Source of the DNA: Halosimplex salinum
GTDB lineage: Archaea > Halobacteriota > Halobacteria > Halobacteriales > Haloarculaceae
Reading direction: 5' to 3'
Assembly (NCBI RefSeq): GCF_003730195.1
Contig: NZ_QWGG01000011.1
Span: forward strand, 62,001-126,000
DNA length: 64,000 nt
The notes under the pieces are model-generated. The model saw only the letters and a list, made by a program, of their open reading frames with translations. It ran no database searches and was not told the DNA's origin. A program made the position numbers and the translations under genes. Below are positions 20,713-63,700 of this stretch, one piece after another (position 1 is the first letter of the stretch; each line of letters begins with the position of its first letter).

Positions 20713-21159
20713 CCGGCTGATCCCCCTGAGTCCGCCGTTTGGGAGTGACAACCCTAATCAGGAGCGGCAGAATCTACGCAATTTCGCACGTCCGCCCAGT
20801 AGATGCGATCGGTAAGGATCCAAATCAGGACTGGTCGGTGAGAAGAACCACGAAGTGATGTTAATTCGATCTGAAACTGGGCTATCCTCCGAAACTGTGA
20901 GCGTCACAAGCCGAATTTGGATATAGCGCTATACAGTTTATTCCTGTGGTGTATTATTTTGATGGGTATTGTCCGTTTGCCGTTTTCCCACGTGGAAAAC
21001 AGTAGAGGACAACCTATAAGTAAATCGAACGAAACGCTCTATCCACCGAAACCATCAGACTTAGAATCGCTACTGCACGGAGCACGTCCACTCCTGCTGG
21101 CGATTTCACTCGCGCTCACACTCGAGTCTCTCACTGACCGAGACGACTACACGAACACT
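20713..21159. other. Intergenic region upstream of the recombinase, two palindromes
   Basis: No gene is evident. The stretch contains TATAGCGCTATA, a perfect 12-bp palindrome at 20922-20933. It also contains TTTTCCCACGTGGAAAA, a near-palindrome centred on CCACGTGG at 20984-21000. Both lie upstream of the tyrosine recombinase gene and could be operators, recombination sites, or the right end of the insertion sequence. Confidence 0.4.
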
Positions 21160-22443
21160 ATGACCGAGACGACCGACACTCCACGCTACAGCACGATGGA
21201 CCTCGAGGACGCCGAGATCTTCTACCACGACGAGATTACGCCGCAGATGCGCGCCGAGGGCCTCGCTCCTGAGCACGAAACCCCCACCTATTCGTGGCTC
21301 GAATCGCATTTTCCGGGATTCATCAAACATCTCTCGCGGCGATTCGACCTCTCACCGGGTGACTTCTACGAGAAGATCGACGTTCCGGTTGAGTCCAAGC
21401 CGGAGGAGGGGCCGTTTGACTTCGTCGACGACGATGAGACGCGTACCGCCCTCGAAGACTATCTCGTCGAGCTGCGCGATCGGCAGGGACGGGCGGAGTC
21501 GACGGTCGCCACACGCCGCTCTGCGCTCCGTCTGTACGTCCGGACGTACAAGGACGTCAATGGCACCGATGATCTGCTTGGACCGCTTCACGACGACGCT
21601 TCGCGGGCCGACGAGATGGATCGCGTCGCGGATACGTTCGACGTCCTGCGTCGCCGCGAGGATACGCTGACAACGCACGCGTCGCGACGGAAGTACGTCC
21701 AGGAAGTTCGGCAGTTCTACACCCATCAGGTGACGTTCAAGCGTGCACGTCACAACCCAACCGATCAGCTGGAACGTCGCTTTGGGTGGGATTCGACGCC
21801 TGAGTGGGACAATCAGGCTCTTGAGGCTGATCAGATACGAACACTCTATCAGACAGCCACCGATCCGGTCGACCGCCTCATCGTGATTGGGGTCTGCGGG
21901 TGGGGGCTTCGACCGAGCGAGGTTGCGTCGCTACGCGTTGACCAGCTGGTTCTCGACCCACCAGAAGACGATACGGAGGCCGGACCGTACATCGAATTCG
22001 GGAGTGAGCGGAAGAACGGACCCGGGACGGTCGCACTCCTCACAGGTGTTGAAGATGCAACCGCACGGATCGACACCGTCGTTGAGGAGGCCGGCGACGA
22101 CTGGATGGGCGCTGTGTTCCCGTCTTCGTCGGCGGAGAGCGGGCACCTGTCGACGTCGACGGTTCGACGTCGATTCAAGAACCTCGCAGAACGCGCTGGA
22201 GTGGCTGTCGATGGGGAGGTCCCGACGCCGAAGATGGGGCGACGATATTGGTACACGGCATACGGAGAGGCGGTACGTCGTGTGGCCGAGCGGTTTGCAG
22301 ATGTCGCTGAGGAGCAGGGGTCGAAGTCAGCGGAGGTCGTGTTGGATAACTATCTCTCAGAAGCGGAGAAGCGCCGACATCGCCGCGAGGAGATGCGAGA
22401 GGATCTTGAGGGCTTATTCACAAAAGAAACCGCTGTCCAGTGA
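21160..22443 (+). CDS. Tyrosine recombinase / integrase
   Basis: The 427-aa protein has an N-terminal core-binding helical domain, including TALEDYLVELRDRQGRAEST, and a catalytic domain with the first Arg in GWGLRPSEVASLR. The second box is diverged (PKMGRRYWYTAYGEAV instead of HxLR), and the probable nucleophile Tyr is in VVLDNYLSEAEKR. The divergent HxxR box is what I expect for plasmid-borne haloarchaeal recombinases. The ATG at 21160 is preferred to 20917. It may resolve multimers of the replicon or mediate integration. The partition genes follow on the opposite strand. Confidence 0.82.
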   Translation: MTETTDTPRYSTMDLEDAEIFYHDEITPQMRAEGLAPEHETPTYSWLESHFPGFIKHLSRRFDLSPGDFYEKIDVPVESKPEEGPFDFVDDDETRTALEDYLVELRDRQGRAESTVATRRSALRLYVRTYKDVNGTDDLLGPLHDDASRADEMDRVADTFDVLRRREDTLTTHASRRKYVQEVRQFYTHQVTFKRARHNPTDQLERRFGWDSTPEWDNQALEADQIRTLYQTATDPVDRLIVIGVCGWGLRPSEVASLRVDQLVLDPPEDDTEAGPYIEFGSERKNGPGTVALLTGVEDATARIDTVVEEAGDDWMGAVFPSSSAESGHLSTSTVRRRFKNLAERAGVAVDGEVPTPKMGRRYWYTAYGEAVRRVAERFADVAEEQGSKSAEVVLDNYLSEAEKRRHRREEMREDLEGLFTKETAVQ

Positions 22444-56247: not shown

Positions 56248-57678
56248 CTACTCGTCGTCCCGCCGTCCGAGCGTGACCTCGATCGCCCGCTCCATATCGA
56301 TGTGGTTGATCCACGCGTGCTGGTCGCTATCGGCCGACCACGGAGCGATTGTCGGATCATCCGACTGCCGCTTCCGCCGCGTCATCGGGCCGTCACCCCG
56401 GTCGAGGATGGTGAGGTCCGTATCACCGACGACTGCCAGGGTCGCATCACCCTTGTAGGCGTTGACACGCACCCGCTCCGCCCGAATCCGGTCGCCCACC
56501 GCGAGCGTCGGCTTGTCACCCGCCGCGAACCAGACCGTGAACTTCGCCGTGTCGCCGGCCTCGTCTTGCACCAGTCCCACCTGGTACTGCGACCGATGCT
56601 TCGGCGTCCACAGCGTGGTCACCTCCGCCTCGACCGTCGTCTCCCACTGCTCGTAGGGATCGATCGACCCGATGGGCTGCTTGATCTCGAACATCCGCTC
56701 GAGTGTCTCCTTGACGGCGATCGTCGCGTTCATCACGTCCGACCCGTCCTGGATGTGCCGGGCGATGCACTTCCCGAACGTCGCTCTGGACATCGCTGCT
56801 TCGCCTTGGAAGTGCTCGGCCAGCCGCGCCGCGCCCTTGTTCACCTGGGCGAGCGTCTCCTGGTCAAGTGACGCCCGCGGGTCAGGGCCGTCACTCACGG
56901 ACGTCGTCGTGACCGGTTCGTCGTCTGCCGGATCAACGCGCTTGACGCCGACCGTCTCTGCCGGCGGGCCCTCCCACGGGTCGTCGCTCTCTGAGACGGA
57001 GTGGCGAATCGGCACCCGCGTCCGCATATCGTCTCGCGACCGCGCCGCTCGGTCGATGCCCGCCACCTCTGCCGCGATCGCCTTCGCGCGGTTCCGCTCA
57101 TCGGCCTCGAACTCGCCGCGCATTCGCTCTTCAGTCGCTAGCATGTAGTGCTCCGGGGACACCTCCGCGAACGGCGCTTGCAGGTCGCGTCGAGGCTCGG
57201 GGATGTCCATTTCCGCGAGTGCCTGCTCCCAGTAGACCCCAGTGGAGACACCACGCACCAGCTCGCCGACATCGCCCTCAACGACGTCGCCCAACTGCTG
57301 GCCGTGCATCACTGCCTGAACATCCGCGTAGGTGCCACCTGCGCGGCCGGTCATCTCGCGCCTGTGGGGGAGCCCCGTCTCGTCATCTTGGTCGTCCTCG
57401 TCCGACGTTTCGTGCTGTGAGGCAGCCGCCCGGTACTGCGCGTCCATCCGCGCCGAGCGTTCTCGCGCATAGTTTCCAGGAACGAGTTCCTGCCCCCGGC
57501 TGTCCTCGACCGGTTCGTCGTTCGGGGTCGGGGGGCGTTTGTCGATGTCCACACCGACCACGTTATCGCCGTTCTCCAGATGGGGACTGCTGTAGAGCAG
57601 ATCCATCTCGAGTTCGTCGTACTTGTCAGGCTGTCCAACCGCCGATGGGCTTTTTTGCCCTGAGTTGAAACTATACAT
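56248..57678 (-). CDS. OB-fold protein with disordered N-terminus (RPA-like domain)
   Basis: About 476 aa from the ATG at 57678; a GTG at 57771 would give 507 aa and sits immediately after the shared element. The C-terminal third contains an OB fold (WETTVEAEVTTLWTP, then VGLVQDEAGDTAKFTVWF, then IRAERVRVNAYKGDATLAV), similar to the RPA OB folds. A conserved helical segment (MSRATFGKCIARHIQDG) precedes it. The N-terminal half is acidic and probably disordered. It likely binds ssDNA. Confidence 0.75.
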   Translation of the reverse strand: MYSFNSGQKSPSAVGQPDKYDELEMDLLYSSPHLENGDNVVGVDIDKRPPTPNDEPVEDSRGQELVPGNYARERSARMDAQYRAAASQHETSDEDDQDDETGLPHRREMTGRAGGTYADVQAVMHGQQLGDVVEGDVGELVRGVSTGVYWEQALAEMDIPEPRRDLQAPFAEVSPEHYMLATEERMRGEFEADERNRAKAIAAEVAGIDRAARSRDDMRTRVPIRHSVSESDDPWEGPPAETVGVKRVDPADDEPVTTTSVSDGPDPRASLDQETLAQVNKGAARLAEHFQGEAAMSRATFGKCIARHIQDGSDVMNATIAVKETLERMFEIKQPIGSIDPYEQWETTVEAEVTTLWTPKHRSQYQVGLVQDEAGDTAKFTVWFAAGDKPTLAVGDRIRAERVRVNAYKGDATLAVVGDTDLTILDRGDGPMTRRKRQSDDPTIAPWSADSDQHAWINHIDMERAIEVTLGRRDDE

Positions 57679-57775
57679 TGCTGTTTCACGGGGAGTGATC
57701 CCCTGTTGGGCGCGCTCCACCGCGCCCGCCTTCTGACCGCCGACCGACGGGTGTATTCGTACACCCTTCACCCCG

Positions 57776-57793
57776 CGGAGGGGCGAACAAACT
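57776..57793 (-). promoter_or_regulatory. Shared backbone upstream element (OB-fold gene)
   Basis: The minus strand reads AGTTTGTTCGCCCCTCCG, then CGGGGTGAAGGG. It supports either the GTG at 57771 or a leader of about 100 nt to the ATG at 57678. Confidence 0.5.
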
Positions 57794-57950
57794 CACCGCG
57801 GGGCGCGCCTGAGCGGCCGACGTTCCGCACGCCGACCGCCCGGCGCCGCCTGCCGACGGCCCGACGCCCTGTCACGGGCTACCTGACTCTATGATTTCAA
57901 TCCCCCTCAACAGTTGGAAGGGACTGTGCGTCTTGGCCGCTGGCGCGGCC

Positions 57951-58015
57951 GATTTCGGGAGAAGGGACCCGCGGCGCACCGACCGGATGCGCCGCGGGTA
58001 GTGTCTGCCGGAATC
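57951..58015 (+). repeat. Structured unit 1
   Basis: Outer stem GATTTCGG with CCGGAATC, loop AGGG/AGTG, inner 12-bp stem ACCCGCGGCGCA with TGCGCCGCGGGT. Confidence 0.6.
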
Positions 58016-58079
58016 GAGGCCCGCGCCCAGCGCCACAAGCTGGAAGGCGTCCGGCGGGTGCACCCCTGACGCGGGCGCG

Positions 58080-58122
58080 TTCGGGAGAAGGGACCCGCCG
58101 AAGGCGGGTAGTGTCTGCCGAA
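58080..58122 (+). repeat. Structured unit 2
   Basis: Short outer stem TTCGG/CCGAA, loop AGGG/AGTG, inner stem ACCCGCC-GAA-GGCGGGT. Confidence 0.55.
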
Positions 58123-58265
58123 GGCGGCCGCGATCAGGGGAATGCACGCGCCAGAGGCATCCGGCAAGTGGTCTCCCCAAGACGTGCAGTTCATATCCGA
58201 CAAGTGGGGGGGATGGTTTCCTCTTAAGCGTTCCTTCCGACACGGCGAGAGGTACTGAGGCGGCC

Positions 58266-58318
58266 GATTCCGTGGAGAAGGGGCCCGCGCGAAGCGCGGG
58301 AAGTATCTCCGCGGAATC
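58266..58318 (+). repeat. Structured unit 3
   Basis: Outer stem GATTCCGTGGAGA with TCTCCGCGGAATC (one G-T pair), variant internal loop, inner stem CCCGCGC-GAA-GCGCGGG. Confidence 0.55.
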
Positions 58319-58352
58319 GCGGCCCGCGTCAGGGCCTCGAGCTTGTCGGAAC

Positions 58353-58390
58353 GACGGCGCTCGCGCGTGTGTGATAGCGCGAGCGCCGTC
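58353..58390. repeat. Perfect 14-bp hairpin
   Basis: GACGGCGCTCGCGC, a 10-nt loop, GCGCGAGCGCCGTC. It lies between units 3 and 4 and differs from the unit pattern. Confidence 0.6.
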
Positions 58391-58430
58391 GGGTACCGGC
58401 AGGGGAGCCGGCTGCCGTCGTGAGCTGGCC

Positions 58431-58488
58431 GATGTCAGTGGAAGGGACCCGCGCGAACGTGTGAGCGCGGGTAGGGTCCGCTGAGATC
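58431..58488 (+). repeat. Structured unit 4
   Basis: Outer stem GATGTCAGTGGA with TCCGCTGAGATC (one mismatch), loop AGGG/AGGG, inner stem ACCCGCGC/GCGCGGGT. Confidence 0.6.
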
Positions 58489-58573
58489 GTGCCAGGTCAG
58501 GAACGGCACGGCGGCTTCCCCCGCCCGTCCCGTGGACGCTTAAGAGGAAAGAAATTAATTTTTGCTCGGCGGC

Positions 58574-58601
58574 TTCTGGCGGGTGGCCCGTACCGCCAGA
58601 A
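58574..58601. repeat. Perfect 9-bp hairpin
   Basis: TTCTGGCGG and CCGCCAGAA around a 10-nt loop, between units 4 and 5. Confidence 0.45.
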
Positions 58602-58695
58602 CGAAGCCCGGTGCGGGGCCCTGCCCGCCGAGGTACGGGAGTCGCGAACCCGGCAGATGCGGCCGATGAACAACGTGAACCAGCCGCGCACGGCC

Positions 58696-58744
58696 GATTC
58701 CGGGAGAAGGGACCCGCCGAAGGCGGGTAGTGTCTGCCGGAATC
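58696..58744 (+). repeat. Structured unit 5
   Basis: Outer stem GATTCCGG/CCGGAATC, loop AGGG/AGTG, inner stem ACCCGCC-GAA-GGCGGGT. Confidence 0.6.
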
Positions 58745-58818
58745 GAGGTCCGGGTGCGGGTCGGTGAACGCAGATGAATCGGCCGCATATGGCCGGGCTG
58801 AGTCGTGCGTCGCCGCGC

Positions 58819-58911
58819 GCTGAACCGGTCGATTTCGTGTGGAAGGGGCCCGCGCGAGCTTTCGGGCGCGGGGAGGTGTACGCGCGAAATCGTGACCCGG
58901 TCCGGTTCAGC
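58819..58911 (+). repeat. Structured unit 6 with basal stem
   Basis: A basal 10-bp stem GCTGAACCGG/CCGGTTCAGC encloses GATTTCG/CGAAATC and inner stem CCCGCGC/GCGCGGG. The loop is less regular. Confidence 0.55.
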
Positions 58912-59029
58912 GTGCTGGCGACGTATGACTCAGGCGAACGGAGTGAGCGACGCGATCTCCCGTGCCTTCGGCTCGGCAGGCCCCGTGCCCGGCTTCGCCC
59001 CGACTCGCCGGGAGGCCGACAGAGGCGCC

Positions 59030-59086
59030 CGATTTTCCGTGGAAGGGACCCGCCCCGGTGGGGGCGGGTAGGGTCCGCGGAAATCG
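59030..59086 (+). repeat. Structured unit 7
   Basis: Outer stem CGATTTTCCGTGGA with TCCGCGGAAATCG, loop AGGG/AGGG, inner stem ACCCGCCCC/GGGGCGGGT. Confidence 0.6.
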
Positions 59087-59241
59087 CTGGTGGCTCCGGC
59101 GGCCCCTCCCGGTGAGTGCGCGGCGCGCGCTACTGCACGCGCCAGCGCAAGGGGGCCGACCGAGTGAGGAAACCTGGTCGTAGCACGACCCGATGTCTCC
59201 CGAGGCCGCCGAATCCGCTCGATGAGCGGTGTTACGAGGCG

Positions 59242-59307
59242 CCGTCGCGGACTGGAAGGGGACCCGCGAGCGGGTTGCGCTCGCGGGTAGGGTCCGGTTC
59301 GCGTCGG
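59242..59307 (+). repeat. Structured unit 8
   Basis: Outer stem CCGTCGCGGACTGGA with TCCGGTTCGCGTCGG (imperfect), a slightly longer 5' loop AGGGG opposite AGGG, inner stem ACCCGCGAGC/GCTCGCGGGT. Confidence 0.55.
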
Positions 59308-59388
59308 TGTCTCGTGACCGCGCAATCCGCGGACTTCGGCGGATGAGTGGACGACATCGGCTCCCACGGACTGGCCGGTGAGGCGGCC

Positions 59389-59422
59389 GATTTCGGGGAA
59401 AGCTACGCGATTCCCCGAAATC
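59389..59422 (+). repeat. Structured unit 9 (reduced)
   Basis: Perfect 12-bp stem GATTTCGGGGAA/TTCCCCGAAATC with a 10-nt loop. It keeps the GGCC and GTGGCCCG flanks but lacks the AGGG loop and inner stem. Confidence 0.5.
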
Positions 59423-60226
59423 GTGGCCCGCTGTCAGCGGCCAGAGCGTGTGGAGCAGGTCCCGGAAATCAGCCGCCGCTACGACGCGGTCCTAATTCAC
59501 CCACGGAGACCGTCCGACGAGCTCTGCTCGTCGCGGCGGTCTCGATCCAAAGCGCGCGCGACCCCGACGCGCGCGGCACCCTTCTCGAGACACACCGATT
59601 GGGCATCCATACGCGCCAGAGCAGCGAGCCGACGGCCGTCACGCCGGAACGCGGTGGCGACAGCGACCACTCGGCCGCCGAGGCCACACCACTATGCTCT
59701 ATCGACAGCCCACGGCGTCTCACGACGGCGCGACCCCCCGCCTCGAGTACAGCCGACAGCCCCTCGCGAAGTCGACGTCACCGTGCCCAATCCTCACGCT
59801 GAGAACGAACCACGAGGCGAGAGCCGCGATACGCAGCACGTCCCTAGCCTGTTTGAGATACGCACCCTGACGTCCCCGTGCGATAGCCAGCAGACCCTAG
59901 TGTAGGCACCACCGCGACACGACCATCCACTCCCACTCGCTCGTACGCAAAGCCGTATGTTCCCCACGCGCGCTCGATGCTACACCTCGACGCCACCCAC
60001 CAGCTCCTACGTTACGACAGGCCGCGCTCTCCACGCGACACACAACGGCTATTCACCTCGGCTTCGGCTACCGACTTCTCCACAATCTGATACGCATCAG
60101 ACACTCGTCTTCGACGACCGCCCAGGGGGCAGCCTGTACCCGCTGCCAGGGTACCCGCTCGCCGGAACACATCGGTACCCCCCTTTCACACGAATCTGCC
60201 CCCTCTATACTAGTGGGAAAGGGGGT
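59423..60226. other. Noncoding stretch after the hairpin cluster
   Basis: Open frames here encode basic, Arg/Pro/Ser-rich peptides unlike haloarchaeal proteins, so I do not call genes. No repeats of the unit type were seen after 59430. It could be the remainder of a long noncoding transcript, a replication region, or decayed DNA. Confidence 0.35.
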
Positions 60227-60574
60227 GTTCCAGTTTCTCAATAGCCGGGGATAATCACTAGACTGCGTAGCGTTCCAGTTTCGAGAGTGCGGAGAGTCGC
60301 TCGAAGGGTGTTCTGAGCACGGAGTTGACTATAGGCCCGAAATCGCAAGACTGCGCGGCGTTCCAGTTTATCGAGATGCTGGTGTGTGGTGGTGCGTAGA
60401 TGTGTCCAGGTTTCCGGTGAAAACCGCAAGACTGCACGGTGTTCCAGTTTGCAAAAGGATCCGGTCTTTGCGGGAGTGTATGCTAATGATTGACGTTCCA
60501 GTTTACCATCCCGACGCTATATGGTGATTTTGTGAGTCCTCAGAGATTCGCGTTCCGATTTACCGTTCCAGTTT
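60227..60574. repeat. Degenerate repeats containing GTTCCAGTTT
   Basis: GTTCCAGTTT occurs at 60227, 60272, 60360, 60442, 60495 and 60565, with a variant at 60552. The copies at 60272, 60360 and 60442 have longer shared sequence upstream, close to GCAAGACTGCRYGGYGTTCCAGTTT, including a small hairpin CGCA-AGAC-TGCG. Spacing is irregular (13-88 bp), so this is not an ordinary CRISPR. Iterons or a decayed array are possible. Confidence 0.5.
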
Positions 60575-60745
60575 TGTATTACCGTGCCGTCCGGTGGTTT
60601 CTCCAAAATATGCTATTCAGTAATAGTTCTAGAAAATCGAGGATTAAGTGACACCGTCAGAAGGGAAATTATCGGAAATATAATTTTGAGTTCATAGTAT
60701 TAGACGGGAGATCGAGGCGGTAGACTGAGAAAGAAAATCAAGAGG
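60575..60745. other. AT-rich intergenic segment
   Basis: This is a marked AT-rich stretch between the GTTCCAGTTT repeats and the 3' end of the giant ORF, with TATA-like TTATAT on the minus strand near 60676-60681. An AT-rich block beside repeats is suggestive of an origin, but nothing more specific is visible. Confidence 0.3.
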
Positions 60746-63700
60746 CTACTCGCGCCACTCGAGGTGCGTATAGCACCGCGTAGGCGACCCGTCGATCCGC
60801 CGGCGTTTCCGTTCGACCGAGACGCCGAACAGCGCCGCACCCCAGATTTGGAGGAACCGTTTGAACGTCACACTCGAACCTCGGTCAGGGAGAGACTCGA
60901 ATCCCCAGTCGGTGACGGTGTCGACGTATTCGTCATAGGTTTCCGAACTCGGAAGCGCTCCGTCAGGGTCGGACGTGAGCTGGTTCGCAATGAACGCCGC
61001 ACCACCTGCCGACTGCTCGGGCGCTGCTTCCGTCAAGAACGACGTGTCTTCTTCTGTGGGATCAACCATCTTCACACCCAATATAACGGTTCGAGTGCTG
61101 TCTTCGTTTCCACCTGACGTTGAGACGATATTGAATCCCTCTTCGAGGGCACTGATGACGTCGCGATCGATGTCGAAGAGGTCTCCGTCGATACCGGTGT
61201 CCGTGTCGAACGCATCGAAGAGGGAATCGATCGTTTCTGCGAACTCGTCCTCTGATTCTGGTGGGACGAGGTTGTGCGTGCTCGCGAATTCCTGACAACG
61301 GTCGAAGGCGACATCCACGTCCACGACGTTGTTCGGTGCAGGACGGAGGTAAGCCGCGATGAACGCGGCGGTAGCTGCTTTCCCCTCATCCTGGAGTGGT
61401 TCGGAAGTATCGTCTGTCTCTCCCTCCTCGGACTGCGTTGAGTCAGTATCATCGCCGTCAAGCTCTTCGTCCTTGTTGTCGGATGGCTCGGGAGTGGATT
61501 CGTCTGGTGCCTCGTCCGTCGATGATGACGCGCCAGTGTCTTCCTCATCCACTTCAGAGTCTTGCGCTTCGTCGGTCGAGACTTCGTCTTCGTGAGTCCT
61601 CTCGGGTGCCGTTCCGGGGCCAGCGGACGCCGGCTTGAGTTCGCCCGTCTGAATCGCTTCGATGAGGTCCTCGACGGGCCGAAGCGTCCCCATCTCCTCG
61701 TCGCCCGAGGTCCGATGATCGAACCAGGCGATACGTGCCTGTGCATCGTCGCCGGCGCGGGGCGGCTCGTATCGGACGAGGATGGCATATGCGGTTTCCG
61801 GGTAGTCCGGGTGCCGGAATTCGATGTCGGGTACGAATGGCTTGTTGACGCGGACCCAATCCTCACGGAATCGCTCTTCCGTCTCGTACTTGTACGTCTG
61901 CTCGCTACCCGGAGTCTCGACGATATAGCGAGCTGATTCGTTTGCACTTCCCGGGGGACATGTCGCCCGGTACGGGATGCTCGAGGGAGTGAGGTTCTGG
62001 AAGTCACCGGGAGCGATACGGAGGTGTATATCCTCGTCATCGGGATGGCCGATGTTGTCGGCGGTCGGGGCGACGAGGAGGCAGTCGTCCGAGTCGGGGT
62101 CCGGGTCGCGAGCCCAGATCGACGCGCCGGCGCTCTCTGTGTCCGATCGGGGGACGACAGCGGTGACACCGCCGTCGCGGGCGCCGCCGTCGAAGTCGAT
62201 TGGCGTGTTCGATTGCGAGTAGAACCGGCGACCCGACCACTGAGTGTTCATCGGATCACGGAGGATGTTCGATAATGCGGTGGCAGGTCCAAGGTCGGGG
62301 CCCCCCGCGTCTTCGTCCCACGGTGTTTCGGCGACGAAGATGGGGAGGCGACATTCGCCACTCTTCGTAGTAGTGTTAAGCGCCTTCTTGAGGTTACGGA
62401 GTTTCTTCGTGGGGTGTCGACGTGGGTCGGTCTCCTCTTCGACTGTGCATAAGATGATGTCGTCAGCGAAGCACTCCGTAGGCTCGCTGGCGAAGACTGT
62501 GAGGACGGCGTCCGGGATGTCCCCGGTGTCTTGGTCGATGATCCGGCCACTGACTCGGGTGGGGACTGCGTCTTCGAGTGCCGTCATAGCGTCCCGAAGG
62601 CCGGTATCGTGAGTATCGGTCCCAGCGGTTGCAACCCAGCCAGTCGAAAAGACGTTTTCAAGAAGGAGACGAGCACCCTCGGGAGTCAACCGAATGGCGT
62701 AGCCCTCGTCGCCGGGGACGTCGTCACGGTGCTTCGCGAGTTCGATCTCGAAGATACCGTCTGTTTCCGGGATGGGAGTGTCGCCAGCGACGCCCCGATG
62801 GGTCATAATGGTGCCTAACGCCTCGATCTCATCGGCGCACGCCTTGAGCGAGGGGAGGGCATCGCGGCGACGATTACGTTCTCCCTCGTTGAGGTCCTCT
62901 GTGGCGAGGACTTTCTCGACTTCGAGGCGAAGCCGGCGGTACATCTCGTCAAGGCGCACCCAGCGGTACGTCCCGGGTCGTGGTTCCTCTCCATCGAATG
63001 GGTCGATCCCAACAGAATTGCTCTCACTGGTCCGGCGGCGTTCGATCGCCGCGGACACACTCTCGTTACTCACAGTGGCATTTTGCTGTTCGAGAGCTGA
63101 TTCGTCTGCTGGCGCAGTTTCGGACTTCGTGTCGAGACGATCACGAACCGCAGTCGGTGGCCAGTTCCCGGTATCCCGTGCGAGATCGATGAGTTCCTGA
63201 ATCCGGGCCACTTCATCCTCGGTGAGGATACCTTGGTTAAGGAGAGTCGCGACGCGGCTGTTGAGCGCACGGGCTTGGATGGATTCCTCGTCTTTCCGGT
63301 ACGTCGGGAGGTCGGTGTGAATCGCCCATTCCTCTGGGGAAAGTGATTTCCCCTTCTCGAGGAGGTCGGTAAGCTCCTCCCACTCGTCAGTCGTCATACT
63401 GCCCTTCAGGACGTGATGAAGACTGGACGCAGGCCCTGAGCTCTCAGCGGCCGAGGGAGGAGTCTGGCGCTCGGTATTGGATTGGGTGAGCTCGGTCTTC
63501 GCCTCATCCCACTGGTCGCGAGCCCACCCACCTGAGTCGAACAGCGTATCTGGCTGCTCGCTCGTAGTGGATGGAGAATCGTTCTCGCGACTGGCAGATA
63601 CCGATTCAGCTGTGTATTCATCGGGTCCTGCATCATCCGACAGGACATCTATCGCGCTGACTTCCTCAGCCGGGGAGTCCTCTGCCGTCGAATCATTATT

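Follow-up and report, generated by a model that had tools for sequence, protein, structure and literature searches.

A probable giant structured RNA encoded beside an OB-fold protein gene on haloarchaeal plasmids and integrated elements

Hairpins that resemble one another are clustered near the right end of the window, by which we mean the whole 64,000-nt stretch of Halosimplex salinum DNA that was analysed, and the question raised by this locus is whether they are separate repeats or parts of one larger molecule, and what such a molecule might do. The sequence-only reading had described nine covarying hairpins sharing one plan. Eight of them, all on the + strand, fit a single covariance model (R1), each with E ≤ 2e-10; R1 was built from these same eight units after alignment, with a hand-written structure. 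The purine internal loop is AGGG/AGTG in unit 1 (57946-58022, 74.5 bits), unit 2 (58072-58130, 58.9 bits) and unit 5 (58691-58751, 75 bits), whose inner stems are 12, 7 and 7 bp long, respectively. It is AGGG/AGGG in unit 4 (58426-58494, 79.1 bits) and unit 7 (59026-59092, 72.6 bits), the latter with a 9-bp inner stem, AGGG/AGTA in unit 3 (58261-58325, 66.6 bits) and AGGG/GGTG in unit 6 (58826-58898, 69.2 bits); unit 8 (59240-59312, 54.9 bits) has one extra G on the 5' side of the loop. The inner-stem lengths originally given for units 1, 2, 5 and 7 held on inspection. The ninth hairpin (59384-59429, + strand; 33 bits, E = 4e-5) belongs to the set only under a relaxed definition: it has the outer stem, a GT bulge and a conserved AGCTACGCGA cap and is without both the AGGG/AGKG purine internal loop and the inner ACCCGC stem. 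The cap is kept in Natribaculum and in the homologue G174, reads AGCAACGCGA in Halohasta and is missing in H. pelagicum. Elsewhere in the window R1 gave a single further match, at 35 kb, which scored at chance level.

Covariation among the units had also been proposed, and this claim held both within the window and between species, where compensatory changes exceed chance as judged by pair counts against shuffles rather than by R-scape. Of the cells in the eight window units, 88% are paired (76% in shuffles), and sliding the partner by one to three columns lowers pairing to 35-51%. Double-changed cells number 21 compared with 7.9 in shuffles, a count reached by 0 of 500 shuffles, and both sides have changed in 12 of 23 pairs. 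The 38 R1 matches in other loci gave 92% paired cells (74% in shuffles) and 132 double-changed cells (37 in shuffles; 0 of 500 as high). These matches were excluded from the building of R1, but their alignment was fitted to it.

The units from other loci define the anatomy of the motif more closely. In 32 of the 35 such units, 12 or 13 bp separate a 2-nt GN bulge from the purine loop, and the inner hairpin beyond varies from 17 to 40 nt. Their loop strands are AGGG/AGGG (15 units), AGGG/AGTG (7), TGGG/GAA (5) and AGGG/GGGA (2), the rest being single variants. The suggestion that A-G and G-A pairs close the ends of the loop fits the AGGG/AGGG and AGGG/AGTG strands; the TGGG/GAA form, seen in H. 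pelagicum and G174, exists as well. A constant spacing of 12-13 bp, approximately one turn of A-form helix, combined with a free cap can be read as a two-point docking surface, an inference for which there are no binding data. As a separate observation, certain hairpin caps, for example GGTGTGGAGAGGC or GGTGCGGAAAAGGC, recur within the RNAs of three other loci (L037, L042 and L169).

The sequence-only reading understated the locus in one respect, in that the long-range helices embedding the units within a single continuous RNA went unnoticed. Our analysis supports the view that the nine hairpins are branches of one ornate RNA of ~1.6 kb (approximately 57890-59480, + strand), which also contains long-range helices and invariant blocks. 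Its borders are approximate, the 5' end lying near a conserved CTATGAT (~57890) and the 3' end near a conserved GTCCCGGAAATCAGCCG (~59475). Five full-length copies (the window, Natribaculum, Halohasta litorea, G174 and H. pelagicum) can be aligned from CTATGAT through GTCCCGGAAATCAGCCG at pairwise identities of 59-93%. Two blocks on the + strand are identical in all five: GTGAGGAAACCT at 59164-59175, within a longer conserved block ending in GGTCGTAGCACGACCCG, and GTCCCGGAAATC at 59459-59470 toward the 3' end.

For a non-circular test, a structure was predicted solely from the window and Natribaculum sequences and then scored on the three remaining relatives (Halohasta litorea, G174 and H. pelagicum; 59-70% identity). 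In these relatives 79% of cells are paired, compared with 61% in shuffles in which partners were permuted within pair type, and 270 cells are doubly compensated, compared with 82 ± 9 in the shuffles (maximum 112) and no more than 99 double changes when partners were slid. A structure predicted from all five homologues, which leans on the same data as its scoring, contains 50 helices of 4 bp or longer, and 31 of these show at least two double-changed pairs together with more than 80% pairing. Some predicted helices bring together parts of the RNA that lie 300-580 nt from each other. The clearest case, on the + strand, pairs 58217-58231 with 58536-58550, arms 300 nt apart that match at 15 of 15 bp in the window. 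Across the five homologues it is 96% paired with compensatory changes at 7 of the 15 pairs, as scored on arms copied from the five-homologue alignment and joined by four N. A second long-range helix on the + strand (57900-57909 with 58205-58214) closes the 5' domain; in Natribaculum one base is missing from each of its arms (at 57902 and 58207). Folding z-scores from dinucleotide shuffles in 300-nt windows range from -3.7 to -12 across 57951-59301, with values close to 0 both before 57350 and after 59600. With conserved structure in five divergent homologues, these z-scores and an unannotated gap at the same place in related plasmids, the locus very likely specifies a real structured RNA.

Decayed repeats or an overlooked protein gene would be the simplest alternative, and short ORFs do overlap the region. 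No conserved reading frame was found in it, no gene is annotated there in the Natronomonas marina and Halorarius halobius plasmids, and single-base indels are present within it relative to Natribaculum (93% identity). The changes are compensatory rather than codon-like, and this alternative is all but excluded. The lack of a conserved reading frame, the single-base indels and the absence of any Rfam match (see below) together argue for a non-coding RNA.

The RNA is likely read from the + strand, although this is not proven and transcription itself is inferred. The + strand folds with an energy 136-186 kcal/mol better than that of the - strand in five of five homologues; its composition (38% G, 31% C) is such that G-richness contributes to this bias, and shuffled z-scores, which favoured the + strand in nine of ten windows, did so mostly by a small margin. 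G-U outnumber A-C combinations by 30 to 7 in the unit alignment of other species, which was fitted to the model, but by only 5 to 4 in the eight window units, and in two of the three comparisons over the full length their numbers are similar. At the Haloarcula loci that carry a related OB-fold gene, TATATAAA drives away from that gene and into a structured region of their own, the same direction as the window RNA. No convincing TATA box was found for the window-type RNA.

These strand data bear on the possibility that the structures form in DNA, as strand-specific single-stranded folds or cruciforms at an origin of replication or transfer that is bound by the SSB-like product of the neighbouring OB-fold gene. 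The nature of that neighbour and the replication genes carried by the elements are consistent with this idea, and covariation alone cannot separate RNA from single-stranded DNA. The better folding of the + strand in every homologue, the excess of G-U over A-C in the model-fitted units, and the invariant blocks and helices with arms hundreds of nucleotides apart, which resemble a folded RNA, speak against it. None of these points is decisive; we consider a DNA element unlikely.

Within the limits of Rfam 15 and of the open-access papers that were searched, the proposal that the RNA is undescribed is supported; no transcript has been seen. At gathering score, no Rfam 15 family, including GOLLD, ROOL and OLE, matched the window or eight related loci. 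A relaxed search (E up to 1) over 57500-60800 returned only a sub-threshold - strand match to 6C RNA (33.8 bits; the cut-off is 47), which we take as chance. The open-licence literature searched contains no description of such an RNA. No match was found among 50,697 phage records or, for two exact patterns, in IMG/VR, which leaves a viral origin unsupported.

GOLLD, ROOL and OLE are the nearest RNAs in kind but not relatives (PMC12286853). GOLLD, from bacterial phages and prophages, is likewise giant (often above 800 nt), ornate, carried on mobile elements and of unknown function; the RNA described here differs in its archaeal hosts, its ~1.6 kb length, its repeated purine-loop units and a linked OB-fold gene in place of the tRNA islands of GOLLD. 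ROOL is also large and ornate, sits on prophages and phages and forms an octameric cage in vitro; its architecture and hosts are different, and it has no identified protein partner. The setting typical of GOLLD and ROOL (phage or prophage, often near tRNA islands) differs from the one seen here: the present elements look like plasmids or integrated plasmids, and the window contains no tRNA genes. OLE, which is found in extremophiles and is likewise large and ornate, assembles with proteins into an RNP; it is ~600 nt long and comes from Gram-positive bacteria. Few molecules in biology are as poorly understood as giant ornate RNAs. Structures have been published for three of them (GOLLD, ROOL and OLE), all bacterial or phage RNAs, and to our knowledge none have been known in archaea. 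Leaving the ribosome aside, few known structured non-coding RNAs would be larger than this one, at ~1.6 kb, and an archaeal counterpart in culturable haloarchaea with a linked candidate protein would offer a direct route to the function of giant ornate RNAs.

The candidate protein is encoded just upstream of the RNA and divergently from it (56248-57678, - strand; 476 aa, although the start codon could differ) and contains an SSB/RPA-like OB-fold. A gene of this one family is adjacent, divergent and just upstream in 16 of 17 RNA loci. The 16 loci are not independent, since several are near-identical copies, and they amount to approximately eight distinct sequences at the RNA level. Salinibaculum sp. 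KK48 is the exception, with units present and no OB match within ~8 kb. A profile of the family matches the archaeal SSB structures 2kbn (E = 8e-10) and 1o7i. Like these archaeal SSB/RPA proteins the linked proteins have an OB-fold domain, and beyond the barrel they include a conserved stretch at the N terminus as well as a helical domain. An AlphaFold model places the barrel at residues 346-426; mean pLDDT for the whole model is 53.5, and confidence is low outside the barrel and helical domain. Members scoring above 300 bits were found in 29 of 391 genomes (counted from the match list), including all ten unit-positive genomes. The converse fails, as at least two OB copies (L112 and L113) lack a recognisable RNA. 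The leader of the OB gene (window 57650-57880) also shows strong predicted structure, especially on the - strand (z about -5.8 compared with -2.3), as might be seen if the OB mRNA were regulated, which remains only a possibility.

Structure, covariation, distribution, synteny and bulge-loop spacing are shown, and the reading that we favour extends beyond them. The locus would encode a ~1.6 kb + strand non-coding RNA with one ornate fold, in which eight units are full and a ninth has the bulge alone. In the full units, each pair of bulge and purine loop (AGGG/AGKG) would present a docking surface, repeated about eight times, and the RNA would act as the multivalent scaffold of an RNP that most likely holds several copies of the divergently encoded OB-fold protein and would help the mobile element to be maintained, replicated or transferred. 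We give this scaffold reading a probability of roughly 0.5; transcription, protein binding, the scaffold role and the benefit to the element are all inferred. Against it stand the lack of transcript or binding data, the missing TATA box, the G-U excess limited to the model-fitted units, the OB genes without a unit RNA, the shorter and different RNA of the Haloarcula OB loci, the Salinibaculum units without an OB gene, and the resemblance of the barrel to ssDNA-binding proteins, such that DNA may be the ligand.

A sponge RNA, in which the units would sequester the OB-fold protein or some other repressor and thereby control copy number or element gene expression, is an alternative by analogy with CsrB and CsrA. 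CsrB and RsmZ are sponge RNAs carrying many copies of one protein-binding hairpin motif. The presence of about eight similar sites per RNA and of an adjoining, divergent gene for a candidate ligand would suit such a role. A sponge, however, needs only repeated sites, whereas here conservation extends beyond the units to long-range helices and invariant blocks; the window RNA is also much larger than CsrB or RsmZ, and the linked protein is OB-fold/SSB-like rather than CsrA/RsmA, being unrelated to CsrA. We regard the sponge as unlikely. An RNA-only homo-oligomer, such as a cage like those of bacterial GOLLD and ROOL, would make the OB protein a neighbour that has a function of its own. The RNA is similar to GOLLD and ROOL in size, ornateness and mobile-element setting (PMC12286853), and the near-palindromic AGGG/AGGG loops with their fixed spacing from the bulge could make RNA-RNA contacts. 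Linkage of the OB gene in nearly every RNA locus would not be expected of a protein-free particle, and this alternative is likewise improbable.

The scaffold RNP reading can be widened. In a bolder form, which we think as apt to fail as to hold, the RNA would be the first archaeal class of giant ornate RNA; it would assemble with a dedicated OB-fold protein into a large, multivalent RNP or RNA particle and would found a wider group of OB-linked plasmid RNAs of differing architectures. Haloarcula plasmids likewise combine the OB gene with a divergent RNA, which suggests a wider, unrecorded RNA group. The structured region there is shorter and different, and its identification as the same RNA (L046, L048) was rejected at the unit level, as there was no confident unit and folding z-scores were modest. 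What these loci have in common with the window type is the OB gene and a separate element of ~117 nt.

Units were found by R1 in 10 of 391 sampled haloarchaeal genomes, and family-wide searches added more. The RNA region is present on four plasmids, at 99% identity in Natronomonas marina and Halorarius halobius and at 90-91% in Natribaculum breve and longum, and a search of genome contigs with the GAGGAAACCT block pattern recovered Halosimplex pelagicum (in the chromosome), Halobellus, Halorubrum and Halohasta. Unit-bearing loci are located on plasmids or are integrated. In the window, large stretches from ~23.9 kb to the end show 95-98% matches to plasmids of 147-149 kb. Genes of chromosomal type, aconitase for example, are found in the left part, and an integrase (20917-22443) lies near the apparent boundary of the putative integrated plasmid (20917-64000). 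From these three features the element appears to be an integrated plasmid copy, with a fused plasmid contig as the alternative. Its gene content includes its own PCNA, a TFB and a helicase.

Several smaller features accompany these loci. A second architecture of unit-bearing RNA (L039, L040 and L169) contains one full unit and is marked by a separate conserved block, TGGAGGAAT.CCCCGGTG.CCCCAAATCCGCGA; covariation between two of these shorter RNAs (L039 and L169; 54% identity) is weak, the alignment being too poor. The ~117-nt structured element (CTGAAAGGGGC...CCCCTATC...GGGGCTTTCA) lies downstream of the unit RNA in L037, L042, L052 and L169 and occurs in the OB-linked region of Haloarcula plasmids (L046, L048 and some 20 Haloarcula loci). 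It matches 20 plasmid records, is found at six places in Halorussus salilacus NZ_CP099994.1, and had no Rfam match in the loci tested. In the window, AT-richer DNA downstream of the RNA contains at least four iteron-like copies of GTTCCAGTTT spaced ~45-90 bp apart (60224-60570). Directly 3' of the RNA is the hairpin GCGCGCGACCCCGACGCGCGCG (59550-59577); the Haloarcula and L042 loci have close copies of it toward their end.
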